NCBI RefSeq assembly: GCF_017571525.1 | Contig: NZ_JAGETY010000021.1 | Span: forward strand, 1-64,000 | Direction: 5' to 3' | Length of the DNA: 64,000 bases | Source of the DNA: Hymenobacter sp. BT559 | GTDB taxonomy: Bacteria > Bacteroidota > Bacteroidia > Cytophagales > Hymenobacteraceae | Shown: piece after piece, positions 1,540 to 31,277 of the stretch | Layout: the number at the start of each line of letters is the position of its first letter | Numbering within the stretch: the stretch's first letter is position 1 | Position numbers and translations under genes: made by a program | Notes under the pieces: model-generated | Told to the model about the DNA's origin: nothing | The model's input: the letters and a program-made list of their open reading frames with translations, nothing else | The model's database searches: none

Positions 1540-4171
1540 GGCTGCCGACCGCACTGCCGACTTCGCGGACCTGCACCCGGCCTATGCCTACCAGGACGAC
1601 AAGGTCATCTTCCGGGATGGCCGCGTAGGCGTCGGCTTTGTCCTCGAATGCCCCGAAATGGAGAGCTGGCAGGCCGAAGAGTTTGCCAACCTTCAGTCGG
1701 CGCTGCTCGGGACCCTGCGCACCCTACCCGTGGGCACGGTGGTGCAGAAAACCGACATCTACTACGACCGGCCCTTCCAGGGCATCGGCGAAGCCCGCCC
1801 CGGCTACTTCGAGGGCAAGATGAACGCGCACTTTTCCGACCGGCTGGTGCTCTTCCACCGGGCCTACCTGTTCGTCTCGTTTGCGCCCGCCGACGAAGCC
1901 AAGCCCGTTCGGCCGAATGCTTTGAGTGCATTGGTGAACCGCGCCGGCGAGAAGCTGGCCAAGAACCCGTTTGCCGGCGTGGTGCAGACCCTGGACGCAG
2001 CCGAGCGCATCGCCACCGAGCTGCTGCAGAGCCTGCGCGGCCTCGGGGGCCTTGACTACCGCCGCCTCAACCAGGCGCAGCTGCCGCAGGTCTTCACCCA
2101 GTACTTTAACCTGGAATTTGACCAGCAGCCCGCCGGGCTGACCCGCGAAATCAGCAACGTGCCGGGCGCCTTCACCGTGGGCGAGAACCGTGTGAGCATC
2201 GTCTCGCTGGTTGGGCAGGGCTCGGAGGCCCACCCCGCTGTGCGCAATGGCTACGGCGTCACTTCGCCCATGCTCTACCCGCTCACGGCGTTTCTCTCCT
2301 GCCCGCATGTGCTCACCCAGGCCATGCTGATTCAGGACTCCCGCACCGAGCTCAAAAGCCTCGACAACGACAAGAAAATCAATAATTCGCTTTCTTTCCT
2401 GGCCACCCAGGACAACCACCTGCGCGCCGCTGAGATTGACGAGTTCACGGCCGAAGTTCGCTCGGGCAGCAAGCAGGTCGTGGGCCTGCACCTGTCGGTG
2501 CTGCTCTGGGACGTGGACGACCAGGCCCGGCGCGAGCACGTGGAAAAGACCACGGCGGCCTTCCGGTCCATCTTCGGGGCCGAAGCGGTGGTGGAAAGCT
2601 ACCTGACCCTGCCGCTGTTCTTCGGCCTGGCGCCCGGCAACGCCTACCAGGTACCGGACCGCTGGCTGACTACCTCGGCCGACCGTGCAGCCTGCTACTT
2701 CCACTGGACCACCACCTACCGGCCCGAGCCCACGGGAGAGTATCTGTGTGACCGGTTCCGCAACCTGGTCAAGGTAAACCTGTTCAACACCGACCTCGAC
2801 AACCAGAACGCGCTGGTCATCGGCCCCTCCGGCTCGGGCAAGAGCTACACGTTCGGCAACTTCATCGTGCAGCGCTACGAGCGCGGCGCCCGCCAGATTA
2901 TCATTGACATCGGGGGCACCTACCGCAACGTGTTCCAGAGCCTGATGGGGCCGGACTTCGAGAACACCTACTTCGAGTACGACCCGCAGAACCCGATTGA
3001 GTTCAACCCCTTTTTGCTACCGAGGGAGGGCGAAAACGGCCCCTGGCACTACTCCGACGAAAAGCTCAACTTCCACCTGGCCCTGCTGGCCGCACTCTGG
3101 AAAGGCGGCAAGGACCGCGCCCTGAGCAAATCCGAGCGCACCATCCTTTCGCGCTTTCTGACCGGCTACTACCACGACCTGAACCAGCACGAGCGGCTGG
3201 GCCAGTCGGACGAGGAGTTTCCGGGAATGGAAAGCTTTTATAAGTACGTGCTGCGCTTCGACCAGTGGATGCGGGCCGAAACGCCGGCGGCAGGGGAGGG
3301 GGAAGCACCCGACGAGAGCACCGCCGTGCTGGCCCTGCAGCGGGCCCAATACCAGACCGACATGAAGTACATCGACATGCACGAGTTCTTCCTCGTGCTG
3401 GGTGAGTTCGTGACGGGCGGGCGCTACGCCAAGGTGCTCAACTCCACCCGTGAGGCCCAGCTGAGCCAGTACCCGCTGATTTGCTTTGACCTGGCCCGAG
3501 TGAAAACCGACCCCACGCTCTACCCCGTGGTGGCCATGCTCATCACCGAGCTGAGCCTGGACCTGTTCCGGCAGTTTCCCGACGCGGTGAAGTACATCGC
3601 CCTCGACGAGGCCTGGGCACTGCTCTCGGGTGTGCTGGAGGAGTTCATCGTGTCGATGTACCGCACCATCCGCAAAACCAACGGCTCCATCACCATCATC
3701 ACCCAGGGCATTCAGGAAATCATCGACTCGCCCATCGGCTACACCCTGATTGACAACTCTTCCACCAAAATCATCCTGCGCCACTCCAACGAGGCCTCGC
3801 TCACCCGCCTGCAGGCGCCGCTGGGCCTCACCGGCCACGAGATGGATTTGATACGCTCGGTGCGCTCCACCGACTCATTCCGGGAGTTCTTCATCAAGCA
3901 GGGTGCCCAGGCCAAGGTATACGCCCTGGAAGCCTCACCCCAGCTCGACGCCGTGCTGACCTCGCGGCCGGCCGAGCGCAACTACCTCAACCAGCTCGTG
4001 CGGCACTACCAGCGCCAGCGGCCGGTGGAAGTGCGCGACGCGCTGGGCAACCTGGTGCGCGACGCCGACGGGCGGCCCACCTACACCACCGTCACCGAGC
4101 AGCGGCTGGACTTCGCCGTCGACCAGTTCGTGGAAGAAAAGCAGAAGCGCAAGGGGGCGCTGCCGGCATGA
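1520..4171 (+). CDS. traG: TraG-family VirB4-type conjugation ATPase
   Basis: This is the energy-supplying ATPase of the type IV secretion (conjugation) channel, about 883 residues. A Walker A motif GPSGSGKS lies near residues 435-442 and a Walker B region YIALDEAWAL near 691-700. A conserved TQGIQEI segment and an arginine-rich C-terminal ATPase lobe follow. The N-terminal half matches the TraG/VirB4 N-domain layout (long alpha/beta region before the P-loop). The frame is open from 1373, but the ATG at 1520 fits the family length and overlaps the TraF-like gene by 20 bases. The next gene overlaps its stop by 4 bases (ATGA). No key residue appears missing, so it is probably functional. Confidence 0.92.
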   Translation: MNIPTAKAADRTADFADLHPAYAYQDDKVIFRDGRVGVGFVLECPEMESWQAEEFANLQSALLGTLRTLPVGTVVQKTDIYYDRPFQGIGEARPGYFEGKMNAHFSDRLVLFHRAYLFVSFAPADEAKPVRPNALSALVNRAGEKLAKNPFAGVVQTLDAAERIATELLQSLRGLGGLDYRRLNQAQLPQVFTQYFNLEFDQQPAGLTREISNVPGAFTVGENRVSIVSLVGQGSEAHPAVRNGYGVTSPMLYPLTAFLSCPHVLTQAMLIQDSRTELKSLDNDKKINNSLSFLATQDNHLRAAEIDEFTAEVRSGSKQVVGLHLSVLLWDVDDQARREHVEKTTAAFRSIFGAEAVVESYLTLPLFFGLAPGNAYQVPDRWLTTSADRAACYFHWTTTYRPEPTGEYLCDRFRNLVKVNLFNTDLDNQNALVIGPSGSGKSYTFGNFIVQRYERGARQIIIDIGGTYRNVFQSLMGPDFENTYFEYDPQNPIEFNPFLLPREGENGPWHYSDEKLNFHLALLAALWKGGKDRALSKSERTILSRFLTGYYHDLNQHERLGQSDEEFPGMESFYKYVLRFDQWMRAETPAAGEGEAPDESTAVLALQRAQYQTDMKYIDMHEFFLVLGEFVTGGRYAKVLNSTREAQLSQYPLICFDLARVKTDPTLYPVVAMLITELSLDLFRQFPDAVKYIALDEAWALLSGVLEEFIVSMYRTIRKTNGSITIITQGIQEIIDSPIGYTLIDNSSTKIILRHSNEASLTRLQAPLGLTGHEMDLIRSVRSTDSFREFFIKQGAQAKVYALEASPQLDAVLTSRPAERNYLNQLVRHYQRQRPVEVRDALGNLVRDADGRPTYTTVTEQRLDFAVDQFVEEKQKRKGALPA

Positions 4172-27566: not shown

Positions 27567-27620
27567 ACTAATTTTATTAGCCATAGTTTGTACTAATTTT
27601 ATTAGCAGGACGTATACTTG
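27567..27620 (+). promoter_or_regulatory. umuDC promoter with two identical palindromic operators
   Basis: ACTAATTTTATTAGC occurs twice (27567-27581 and 27592-27606), 25 bp apart; each copy contains the palindrome CTAAT-TTT-ATTAG. Between and after them lie TTTG (27587-27590) and TATACTTG (27613-27620), a near-consensus Bacteroidetes promoter with a 22-base spacer. The copies flank the upstream element, as expected for repression by a LexA-like or UmuD-type regulator. The position also argues for the ATG at 27645 as the umuD start. Confidence 0.6.
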
Positions 27621-27644
27621 CGACGCACACTAGTTCCGCGCCCT

Positions 27645-28112
27645 ATGCAAAACGTTCAATTAATCCCCGTCCACGACTCCCAAACGCCATTTTTACTTCC
27701 ACTTTTCAGCTGCTCAGTATCCGCCGGCTTCCCCTCCCCGGCCTCAGACTATACGGATGAGCTCTTTGACCTGAACCGCTTGCTGCTGCGTCACCCTGAT
27801 GCCACATACTTAGTGCGGGTGAGCGGGGAGAGCATGAAAAACGCCGAAATTCACGAAGGTGACCTGCTGGCCGTGGACAAACAGATGGAAGCCGACCACA
27901 ACCACATCGTAGTGGCGGTGGTCGAGGGCGAGTGCACCGTCAAGCGCCTGGTCTGCGAGCATGGCACCTGGTGGCTCAAGCCGGAAAACCCCGATTACCA
28001 GCCCTGGGAAATCCACGACGCCGGCGATGTACGCATTTGGGGCGTGGTCACGCACGTGCTCCATGAGTTGATTCCCGGTAAACTAGCGGCCTTGCTGCGC
28101 ACCCGCGACTGA
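27645..28112 (+). CDS. umuD: UmuD-type SOS mutagenesis protein
   Basis: The 155-residue protein is a LexA/UmuD-family serine peptidase that cleaves itself after RecA activation. The cleavage site is Ala27-Gly28 in SVSAGFPSP, the nucleophile Ser63 in GESMKN and the general base Lys100 in CTVKRLV. After cleavage the shortened form joins UmuC to make a translesion polymerase. The gene is 2 bases upstream of umuC, as usual. A TTG at 27618 is in frame, but it falls within the promoter's downstream element, so the ATG at 27645 is chosen. Confidence 0.9.
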
Positions 28113-28114
28113 CT

Positions 28115-29413
28115 ATGTACGCCTTAGTCGACGCAAACAACTTTTACGTGAGTTGCGAGCGGGTTTTCCAGCCCCGGCTCGACGGCCGACCCGTCGTGGT
28201 CCTCTCAAACAACGACGGTTGCATCATTTCCCGCTCCGCCGAAGCCAAGGCACTGGGCCTGCAGATGGGAGACCCCTACTTTCAGGTTAAACCCCTGCTG
28301 GAGCAACACAACGTCGCCGTATTTTCCAGCAATTACGCCCTCTACGGCGATATGTCGCGGCGGGTAATGTGGTACCTGAACCAAGTAGCGCCCGCCGTCG
28401 AAATCTATTCCATTGACGAGGCCTTCCTCGACTTGCACGGCATGGAGCCCTTTGTAGTCAGCAGCCTGGAGTCCTTTGCCCGCACCGTGCGCACGAACGT
28501 CCTGGCCCGTACGGGCATTCCGACCTGCATAGGCATTGCCCCCACCAAGACGCTGGCCAAGCTGGCCAACCGCCTGGCCAAGAAAAACCCCGGCATGGGC
28601 GGGGTGTGCTACCTCGACACGGCGGAGCGCCGCCGCTGGGCCCTGGAGCAGGTAGCCGTAGAAGACGTGTGGGGCATCGGCCGGCAGTATGCCCAGAAGC
28701 TCTATGCCGCCGGCATCACCACTGCGGCCGGACTGGCCGGCTGCTCGGAAGCCTTTGCTCGCAAATACCTGGGCGGCGTGGTGGGCGCCCGCCTGGTGCG
28801 GGAGCTACAGGGCTTTCCCTGCCAGGGTCTGGCGCCGAGCGAGGACGGCACGCTCTCGCGGCGTAGCCTCTGCTGCTCGCGCACCTTTGGGCGGCCACTC
28901 ACGGACTTTCTCGATGTGACGGGAGCTGTGAGCGCGTTTGCTTCGCGGGCAGCCGAGAAATTGCGCCGTCAGGGCGATGCGGCCCACCTGCTCACTGTGT
29001 TCTTGAGCAAAAGCCGCTACGGGCTGGAAGCCCCGCCGTATTCCTCCTCGGCGGTGCTCACCCTACCCATGGCTACCAATGACACCATGGAGCTGGTGCG
29101 GCACGCCCGGGCGGCCCTCAAACGCCTCTGGCAGCCGGGCAACCGCTACACCAAAGCGGGCGTGATACTCGACGGCCTGGAGCCGGAAGGGCAAACGCAA
29201 CTCACGCTCTTTGAAGCCGCCCCCGTATCGGAGAGGCGGGCAAAGCTTATGGTCGAGCTCGACGCTCTGAATCGCCGCTTTGGCAAAGGGACCGTCAAGC
29301 TGGCCTCGCTGGTGCTGCCACCGGGCCAGCTAAGGGCACCATGGGAAGGTCAGGCGCAGTGGCGCACGCCGCAGTACACGACCCGGCTGGAAGATTTGCT
29401 GCTAGTTGGGTAG
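28115..29413 (+). CDS. umuC: UmuC-type Y-family translesion DNA polymerase
   Basis: The 432-residue protein has the full Y-family layout: [18 protein letters not shown] with the first catalytic Asp at residue 6, the second acidic pair in YSIDEAFLD, the helix-hairpin-helix segment [15 protein letters not shown], the little-finger domain and the C-terminal UmuC extension (DUF4113-like). It copies damaged DNA at the cost of mutations and is co-transcribed with umuD. Plasmid-borne umuDC copies usually raise UV tolerance of the host. No broken motif is visible. Confidence 0.93.
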
Positions 29414-29472
29414 GCTCCTTGCTTGTTGGGCCCCTGCATTGCATGCGTGCAGCACTGCAAGGAAGCTTTTGA

Positions 29473-29662
29473 CTTATAAAGTCTATTACTTCACCAGCTG
29501 TCAAGCTCGACCATACCCGGCTTGAAAGGCTAGGAAATAGCTTTTACAAGCACTTAAGCACCCTGTAGAATGCTAGCTGGTGCTTTTCGTAGCCGAATTG
29601 GCTACTTTTGAGATGCTGTTTTAGGAGTTCAGAGCTTTTGCTTAGGCTTATAAAAACTATTA
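29473..29662 (-). repeat. Outlying iterons in inverse orientation
   Basis: CTTATAAAAACTATTA (29647-29662) is the reverse complement of the iteron consensus TAATAGnTTTTATAAG, and CTTATAAAGTCTATTA (29473-29488) matches it with one change. A degenerate direct copy AAATAGCTTTTACAAG lies at 29535-29550. The stretch 29414-29850 holds no convincing gene. Distant, inverted iterons often act in copy-number control by letting bound initiators pair with the main array. Confidence 0.6.
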
Positions 29663-29850
29663 ATAAGCCTTCTGGTTGCTCTGGAGCCTGGTTAGAGAAG
29701 TCCTTCATAGTAGAAAAAGGTAAAAAATTCTTTAAAAAGTGCAATGCGATTTTGTGCTTGTTTAGACTTCCCTTTTTGTTGTTTTCGTTCGGACTTCGCC
29801 CTAAACCACCACTTTATAAGCTTTTGTACTGCAGCTTCAACAAGCTTGTG

Positions 29851-29877
29851 AGTATTTTAAGTATTTAAGGTATTTGC
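29851..29877. other. Probable DNA unwinding element (three AT-rich 9-mers)
   Basis: Three tandem 9-mers, AGTATTTTA, AGTATTTAA and GGTATTTGC, lie 45 bases upstream of the iteron array. Short AT-rich tandem repeats beside iterons are the usual melting site of plasmid origins. The assignment rests on position and composition only. Confidence 0.45.
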
Positions 29878-29921
29878 AGGGCTCACAACTTTTTGTACTT
29901 CAGTTACTTAAGCGGCTTTAG

Positions 29922-30243
29922 TAATAGGTTTCATAAGCGGGCTAATAGGTTTTATAAGCCAAGTAATAGGTCTTATAAGCTGGGTAATAGGTTTTATAAG
30001 CGTAAGTAATAGCTTTCATAAGCTCATTAATAGTACTCGCACGGCCGTCTATTAATTCGTCATTGTGGGGTAATTAATAGATTTTATAAGTCATTCTGGC
30101 CGCTAGCGAAGCTTGAGACTGCTATCAGCCGCACTGAACTAATAGGTTTTATAAGTCTAACTAATAGCTTTTATAAGTCTCACAGAAAGCTCGCGCTTGG
30201 CTAACTAATAGGTTTCATAAGTCTAACTAATAGCTTTTATAAG
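29922..30243 (+). repeat. Iteron array of the plasmid replication origin (oriV)
   Basis: Ten full copies of TAATAGnTTTyATAAG start at 29922, 29943, 29964, 29985, 30007, 30075, 30140, 30162, 30206 and 30228. A half copy (TAATAG only) is at 30028. The first four are spaced by exactly 21 bp, later neighbours by 21-22 bp (two helical turns), and copies come in pairs further on. Such a regular array directly before a RepB-type gene marks the initiator-binding origin. No gene lies in 29414-30347. Confidence 0.9.
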
Positions 30244-30270
30244 CCGAGGTGCCCATCGACTTACCCCAAG

Positions 30271-30342
30271 TTGATAGAGACAGAATTTCGCTCTATTACT
30301 TTCCGGTTTAAGCCGTATGTTTGCTCTGTATCCTTGATAGAG
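30271..30342 (+). promoter_or_regulatory. Presumed repB promoter with TTGATAGAG repeats
   Basis: TATGTTTG (30316-30323) is a perfect downstream promoter element. TTGATAGAG occurs at 30271-30279 and 30334-30342, and an inverted ATAGAG/CTCTAT pair spans 30274-30296. Repeats of this kind around a rep promoter often bind initiator dimers that repress the gene. No clear upstream TTTG element is seen at the right distance. Confidence 0.45.
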
Positions 30343-30347
30343 TTGCT

Positions 30348-31277
30348 ATGGCCGCGTCAGAGTCCACCGTACCGATTGAAATTCGGCAGCACAACGCGCT
30401 GACGACGGCCCGCTACGAGATGAGCGCCTGCGAGATGGACATTGTCTTTTCGCTGCTTTCCAAACTCACCAAGCAGGACCAGGCCGGCACCATCTACGAA
30501 ATCCGGGTGCAGGAGCTGATGGAGATGACCGGCCGCACCTGGAATTACAAGCAGCTGCTCGAATCCACCGAGAACCTCAACAGCCGGGTCTACCACATTG
30601 AGAACGGCAAGACCCTGCTGCAGGTGAGTCTGCTGGCCTCAGCGCTGTACCGCAAGGGCGAGGGCACCATTGAGCTAGAGATATCCGAGCGCATGCGGCC
30701 CTTCCTGATTGACCTGAAAAGCAACTTCACCTCCTACCGCCTGCAGGCCGCGTTCAGCTTATCGAGCAAGTACGCCAAGCGCATCTACCAGCTGGCCTCG
30801 CAGTGGAAGGACATTGGGGAAACCAAAACCTACTCGCTGGATGAGTTCAAGGGGATGCTCAAGCTCAAGGACCCCAAGGGCCAGGAGCCCGAGCAGTATG
30901 CCCAGATTTCGGCCCTGCAGAAGTACGTTCTCGACGTGGCCACCAACCAAATCAACGAGCACACCGACCTGCGCATCAAGTACGAGCTGCTCAAGAAGGG
31001 TCGCTCCTACCAAAGCATCAAGTTCTACGTCAACACCCAGGTCCCGCAGCAGCTACCCATCCCCTTCGAGCTGGAGGCCGACGATGCCAAGGTTCAGCTG
31101 GCGCGCAAGCACTTGGACACGCTGGGCATTGCCGAGCCCAAGCTGGTACAGGAAATTTTGCAGTCCGCCAAGCACGTGGATGCCCTGTTTGCTTTCGTCT
31201 ACAAGCTAAAGACCGATAAAATCAAGGCGACCAAGAACCCAGGCGGCTTGTTTCTGAAGATGCAGGGGCTACGTTGA
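30348..31277 (+). CDS. repB: RepB-type plasmid replication initiator
   Basis: The 309-residue protein belongs to the Rep_3/RepB initiator family with two winged-helix domains. The first has NALTTARYEMSACEMDIVFSL near the N-terminus (read in pieces), the second is centred on SKYAKRIYQLASQW and TYSLDEFKGMLKL. It should bind the iterons upstream and open the origin. The ATG at 30348 is preferred over a TTG at 30321 that lies within the promoter's downstream element. The family, the adjacent iterons and the conjugation genes together show that the element replicates, or did so, as a plasmid. Confidence 0.9.
   Translation: MAASESTVPIEIRQHNALTTARYEMSACEMDIVFSLLSKLTKQDQAGTIYEIRVQELMEMTGRTWNYKQLLESTENLNSRVYHIENGKTLLQVSLLASALYRKGEGTIELEISERMRPFLIDLKSNFTSYRLQAAFSLSSKYAKRIYQLASQWKDIGETKTYSLDEFKGMLKLKDPKGQEPEQYAQISALQKYVLDVATNQINEHTDLRIKYELLKKGRSYQSIKFYVNTQVPQQLPIPFELEADDAKVQLARKHLDTLGIAEPKLVQEILQSAKHVDALFAFVYKLKTDKIKATKNPGGLFLKMQGLR

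Follow-up and report, generated by a model that had tools for sequence, protein, structure and literature searches.

Upstream of the Rep_3 plasmid initiator gene repB of Hymenobacter sp. BT559, three iteron copies stand apart from the ten-copy array beside the gene, on the far side of a conserved AT-rich core. This distal cluster is conserved in related loci, where it is likewise placed upstream and partly tracks each plasmid's own iteron word. We read it as a control cluster like incC of plasmid F, moved upstream, that would act by RepB titration combined with looping or handcuffing, and we put the probability of this reading at about 0.58. What is new is the position of the cluster and its clade-wide conservation, not the principle. 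An arrangement that looks odd in one sequence becomes a testable clade-wide design, in which array, operator-like repeats and upstream cluster are all built on one iteron word.

The replicon and its iteron array

The window, i.e. the whole 64 kb stretch of DNA analysed here, comprises bases 1–64000 of contig C13 (80,024 bp) in a genome of 5.12 Mb and 33 contigs. The ends of C13 overlap exactly over 77 bp, so that the contig probably closes into a circle of 79,947 bp, and the source of the region is probably a circular plasmid of ~80 kb. RepB contains the two winged-helix domains of a Rep_3 initiator, WH1 (PF01051, E = 1.1e-34) and WH2 (PF21205, E = 4.2e-14). A profile of 17 relatives matches nine distinct PDB sequences, including 1rep and 2z9o, which we take to be RepE of F, 2nra, the R6K pi protein, and 1hkq, presumably RepA of pPS10. 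Among the matches listed, the nearest RepBs are those of Hymenobacter, and a RepB match at E ≤ 0.001 occurs in 54 of 61 genomes drawn from the genus. The proposal of an iteron origin is well supported by the Rep_3 domains, the profile matches to solved initiators and the array beside rep; the best reading of the region is a theta-type iteron origin with the repB promoter. Genes for a Peptidase S24 (UmuD-like) protein and a Y-family polymerase lie directly upstream of the origin (window 27618–29413), and genes with these annotations are also found near rep in loci L016, L017 and L019.

The features are, by position in the window:

29473–29488, minus strand: distal iteron 1, inverted, TAATAGACTTTATAAG, one mismatch
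29535–29550, plus strand: distal iteron 2, direct, degenerate, AAATAGCTTTTACAAG, two mismatches
29647–29662, minus strand: distal iteron 3, inverted, perfect match
29700–29915, plus strand: AT-rich core, conserved, lying between the distal triad and the array
29852–29878, plus strand: three tandem AT-rich 9-mers, GTATTTTAA/GTATTTAAG/GTATTTGCA
29922–30022, plus strand: block 1, five direct iterons at steps of 21, 21, 21 and 22 bp
30026–30056, unstranded: operator-like inverted repeat O1, in-phase half-site ATTAATAG plus inverted half CTATTAAT, noticed by eye
30075–30090, plus strand: lone direct iteron
30140–30177, plus strand: iteron pair, step 22 bp
30206–30243, plus strand: iteron pair, step 22 bp, inside a 41-nt repeat that the preceding pair (30140–30177) shares at 98% identity
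30270–30300, unstranded: O2, a second operator-like inverted repeat, imperfect and noticed by eye (TTGATAGAG...CTCTATTAC), where the rep promoter is presumed to lie
30316–30323, plus strand: TATGTTTG, which fits the −7 element TAnnTTTG, just downstream of O2
30348–31277, plus strand: repB, Rep_3 initiator, 309 amino acids, WH1 PF01051 and WH2 PF21205

With up to three mismatches, the iteron TAATAGNTTTTATAAG is matched 14 times in the window, 13 of them within 29473–30243; 100 shuffles give 0.27 on average. All ten full direct copies named in the original prediction are present upstream of repB, on the plus strand, starting at 29922, 29943, 29964, 29985, 30007, 30075, 30140, 30162, 30206 and 30228. 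The near-regular spacing of 21–22 bp claimed for them holds for six of the nine steps and fails for the rest, the series being 21, 21, 21, 22, 68, 65, 22, 44 and 22. Similarly, helical phasing at 10.5 bp per turn is strong in block 1 (R = 0.97) and modest over all ten copies (R = 0.62, P = 0.03 against random placement), for which the best single period is 10.98 bp (R = 0.89).

The origin region also dominates the genome as a whole, where 13 of the 21 matches at up to two mismatches fall within 29473–30243. The eight others comprise one perfect match (C7:93499) and seven with two mismatches; these seven are at chance level, since a reversed-pattern control gives nine matches. The isolated perfect iteron, TAATAGGTTTTATAAG, has no array around it (G000:C7:93499-93514, L001:1501-1516) and lies ~350 bp upstream of an ORF that resembles, by eye, one on the plasmid of the window (L115:10572-11942).

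Distal copies, core and operator-like repeats in related loci

Two inverted outliers had been noted upstream, and they lie 449 and 275 bp, start to start, before the first direct copy. The layered origin drawn from these parts is present in every item listed; what it missed is a third outlier at 29535–29550, and its half-site had not been recognised as an operator-like arm. Together the outliers form a triad of orientation (−,+,−), whose third, newly found member is conserved in relatives.

The comparison started from 102 loci, namely the best 80 of 179 relatives (genome contigs), 20 plasmid records, the window itself and L010, the locus of a RepB on contig C12. Two loci with fewer than 700 bases upstream were skipped (L075, L098) and three with fewer than two steps of 20–23 bp were dropped (L046, L112, L069), leaving 97. 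L044 duplicates the record L016; it is counted in the 97 and among the 23 loci used for O1, and is left out of the tree, triad and co-residence tallies. L017 is likewise omitted from the tree, L017 and L049 from the triad count, and three other RepB-like genes of the window's own genome (L011, L012, L013) stand outside the 97. Iteron models were built from the proximal array of each locus alone and then scanned upstream, with thresholds from dinucleotide shuffles; simple shuffles set those for the cross-group, downstream, distant-replicon and F scans.

Upstream distal copies of a locus's own word were found in 95 of the 97 loci, with at least one inverted copy in 92 and at least two in 73. They amount to 378 sites (129 direct, 249 inverted) where shuffles predict about 9.7, and occur in all 13 word groups, the inverted ones in 11. 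The two exceptions among the 97, with no distal copies, are the Pontibacter loci L073 and L074. Inversion is not strictly required, since in L068 and L070 every distal copy is direct, as are most of those in the AGGAGG group.

Within the TAATAG group, to which the window belongs, 20 of 23 members (window included) show the (−,+,−) triad, with a first gap of 61–63 bp in 19 of the 20 and a second of 112–115 bp in 18. Triad and array lie 275–299 bp apart in 22 of 23 members (414 in L054), a variation that leaves no fixed phase between them. The near-universal presence of own-word distal copies and the spacing conserved in this close group support, by comparison, reading the outlying copies as genuine sites for the initiator.

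These data bear on the idea that the outliers are functionless relics of old arrays, left behind by rearrangement, which we consider very improbable. Such rearrangement does occur: in L017 the triad, core and block 1 are all inverted relative to a rep that is annotated as two pieces and has a second rep gene next to it, and L049 has inverted block-1 sites and a triad-like set of reversed orientation, 80% identical over 180 bp to the L017 rearrangement. The degeneracy of the third outlier in the window also suits relics. However, mean pairwise identity within the TAATAG group is 93% for triad sites and 58% for the spacers between them (131 equal-length comparisons), and the word of the distal copies is mostly that of the plasmid itself. 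An inverted triad–core–block 1 module common to L017 and L049 was considered and rejected, the core being undetected in L049 and inverted in L017 only. Neither locus shows that an inverted module works, because L049 has no detectable core and L017 has its rep in two pieces plus a second rep.

A role of the distal sites in regulating a nearby gene or in partition, instead of in replication control, is also highly unlikely. They do adjoin another gene, and initiators can act as regulators. That gene, however (28115–29413, plus strand), stops 60 bp short of the triad, which places its start far away; the annotated neighbour genes differ among the 20 plasmid relatives; and a ParA-like ORF, recognised by eye, lies elsewhere on the plasmid contig (L115:7381-8109).

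Between triad and array lies the core, with the three predicted AT-rich 9-mers at 29852–29878. Only the last of them, TATTTGCAG, is near invariant across groups, and aligning the window with 19 relatives reveals a few near-invariant words in the core. If a core is called clear when it exceeds ten simple shuffles by at least 15, it is clear in 94 of the 97 loci (window included; the best 80 of 179 relatives and others). It is reversed in L017 only, falls below the margin in L049, L073 and L074, and among the first 20 relatives gives a weak match in L031 and L033; L032 has a distal copy within the core stretch. Although AT-rich, the core is not the least stable stretch as duplex, the arrays being equally or more unstable. 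A single-strand hairpin within 29800–29915 was rejected, as there is no extra stability (z = −0.36).

No DnaA box TTATNCACA at up to one mismatch occurs in 29414–30347, and TTWTNCACA within 1,100 bases upstream of rep is found in three of the 97 loci against a shuffle mean of 11; the Hymenobacter box may diverge from this consensus. DnaA sites are described as part of such iteron origins in PMC5043065.

Core and distal copies keep constant company. Wherever the core is clear (94 loci) distal copies occur too, and L073 and L074 have neither; in L049 distal copies are present and the core is not detectable. The two Pontibacter loci, the only ones of the 97 to lack both, retain their proximal array. 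This company fits a brake and a positive element equally well. As a positive element, the cluster would belong to the origin itself: RepB bound to either side of the core would form one opening complex, with the triad needed for initiation. The joint loss of core and cluster slightly raises the standing of this alternative, to which the near-universality in the clade (95 of 97 loci), the distal copies in every clear-core locus and the conserved spacing of the triad sites also lend themselves. We nevertheless consider it unlikely: the number and orientation of distal sites differ between groups, the same pipeline finds no upstream cluster in F, and in the distant replicons L119, L120 and L124 the array beside rep comes with no upstream copy or a single one.

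Those three belong to a set of seven more distant Bacteroidota replicons, of which L118 has an upstream cluster (three direct and four inverted copies). Upstream copies number none in L119 and L122 (the latter without a proper array), one each in L120 and L124, two, both direct, in L123 and two in L121. Since these replicons are mostly without a cluster, the upstream cluster seems to characterise this plasmid clade and not all such replicons. The Adhaeribacter plasmid L121 also has five iteron matches, four of them inverted, just after rep (~2895–3060), a placement that recalls F.

A downstream cluster like incC was considered for the clade itself and rejected. The window contains no iteron copy downstream of rep at up to three mismatches, and over ~1.07 kb after rep only 15 sites appear, in 12 of 96 loci (102,375 bases; rep itself outside the scan), against the 378 upstream.

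Operator-like repeats complete the region. The half-site that had been described as exactly in phase is there, as TAATAG at 30028, 21 bp past the start of the fifth direct copy, and it faces an inverted half-site, CTATTA, at 30049–30054; it is better read as one arm of the operator-like inverted repeat O1. Among the 26 TAATAG-group loci, 23 have a recognisable block 1 (not L017, L049 or L050; L044 repeats L016), of which 22 share TAATAG as the half-site and L054 has TACTAG. For the inverted arm, 12 loci have CTATTA, 10 have CTATCA or CTATCG and one has CTGTTA.

O2, near the gene, was not picked by an automatic operator search of the window, whose best pair has three mismatches. Across loci, this search of the 130 bases preceding rep finds an own-word inverted repeat with at most one mismatch in 37 of 97. 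The corresponding figures are 0 of 291 for shuffles and 5 of 291 for foreign words, and the own-word matches are inflated by the last iterons, which the scan overlaps in some loci. In 58 of the 97 loci the −7 promoter consensus of Bacteroidota, TAnnTTTG, lies 5 to 70 bases ahead of rep, compared with 3.8 in shuffles.

Known systems and the proposed brake

Separate control iterons outside the origin are familiar from P1, whose oriR-repA-incA region has incA downstream of repA. The closest likeness is to oriS-repE-incC of F, which shares with the present region a Rep_3 initiator, direct iterons upstream of rep, an inverted repeat at rep (here operator-like and imperfect) and a separate cluster of inverted iterons. 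Passed through the same pipeline, F yields four oriS iterons, no upstream copies and five inverted copies downstream of repE, whereas here the cluster lies upstream of rep, across the core. Because the cluster is not downstream of the initiator gene, we treat it as an analogue of F incC and do not file it as a member. F, RK2 and pSC101 moreover have DnaA-assisted iteron origins, and in the present one no match to the DnaA box consensus was found at up to one mismatch.

In PMC13028717, incC is described as five iterons downstream of repE; copy number goes up when it is deleted, and a loop formed by RepE between oriS and incC is given as the likely block to initiation, with weight also on titration. 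In pPS10, according to PMC4857107, RepA dimers bind an inverted-repeat operator, monomers bind the iterons and handcuffing inhibits replication; the likeness extends to an operator-like inverted repeat with iterons and the profile match to 1hkq, and the pPS10 work names a four-iteron construct. Chromosome II of Vibrio cholerae has a separate regulatory iteron region, ori2-inc beside ori2-min, that handcuffs and titrates the initiator (PMC6090056); the likeness to the window is one of description, and ori2 differs in its RctB initiator and its 12-mers and 39-mers. No description of this upstream-cluster arrangement was recognised in the accessible text of the literature matches listed, and a search of the available library found no paper joining iteron, Hymenobacter and plasmid.

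By analogy with these systems, we infer that RepB binds the distal triad, loops the intervening DNA and thereby acts negatively on copy number. As in F and pPS10, RepB monomers would bind the direct arrays and open the adjoining AT-rich core, and RepB dimers would bind the half-iteron inverted repeats and repress repB. Once RepB-bound origins build up after replication, RepB would bridge triad and arrays; a bridge within one plasmid would form a loop enclosing the core, one between two plasmids would amount to handcuffing, and melting would be blocked. The triad would additionally titrate RepB.

Pure titration, in which the distal copies only soak up RepB and no loop is formed, is a still less probable account than the positive element. 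Extra sites do lower free initiator, and for F this effect is weighed alongside looping (PMC13028717). However, titration does not need the spacing and orientation conserved within the group, and there are just three distal sites to set against ten in the array.

The control-cluster reading can be carried further, if rather doubtfully, to a distinct control geometry of Hymenobacteraceae plasmids. The brake would sit across the core from the array, and a RepB bridge would clamp the melting region and not the rep gene; cluster and core would be kept or lost together, and co-resident plasmids would be compatible through their own word in array, operator and brake. As a natural variant of the F incC layout, the arrangement lets one ask whether the position of the loop matters.

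Iteron words, compatibility and other replicons of the genome

Word groups track the RepB tree, with 11 changes for 12 groups (95 rows); the words are nearly clade-specific and the independent changes therefore few. Foreign-group models give a mean of 1.6 distal hits and same-group models 4.0, with 0.1 expected. Right halves such as TTTTATAAG occur in many groups, which lets foreign models hit distal regions and weakens the test of covariation. As this cross-word PWM test is only partly discriminating, a left-half test was added: among sites picked by the right half alone, the left half is nearest the locus's own word in 250, tied in 20, nearest another word in 77 and within two mismatches of none in 240. 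Three small groups come out mostly nearest a neighbouring word, namely L089–L091 (0 own, 9 GCTAGG), L070 (1 own, 6 AAGGAAAG) and L072 (0 own, 2 ACTAATAG). Taken together, the pattern supports, without proving, recognition of array and distal sites by the same RepB.

None of the 22 co-resident pairs shares a word, where permutation gives a mean of 3.3 (P = 0.023); the pairs come from the 18 genomes with at least two counted loci, the genome scan having kept the best 80 of 179 relatives. The pairs exclude dropped loci, and G003, with two equally scoring RepB copies on one contig, is not included. This fits the iteron word as an incompatibility determinant, and the word may predict compatibility groups.

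The genome of the window holds further RepB-like genes. A second Rep_3 initiator (G000:C12:8111-9022, L010) has GGAAAG-type iterons and four inverted distal copies. No iteron array was found upstream of a RepB-like gene of 55% identity (G000:C8:64823-65731, L011) or upstream of L013. Contig G000:C18 (L117, L012), of 6,473 bp with a 77-bp end overlap, is probably a small circular plasmid, and its Rep_3-like gene is preceded by CGGGTTTTAG-type repeats at steps of 21–22 bp (300 bases of L012 covered).
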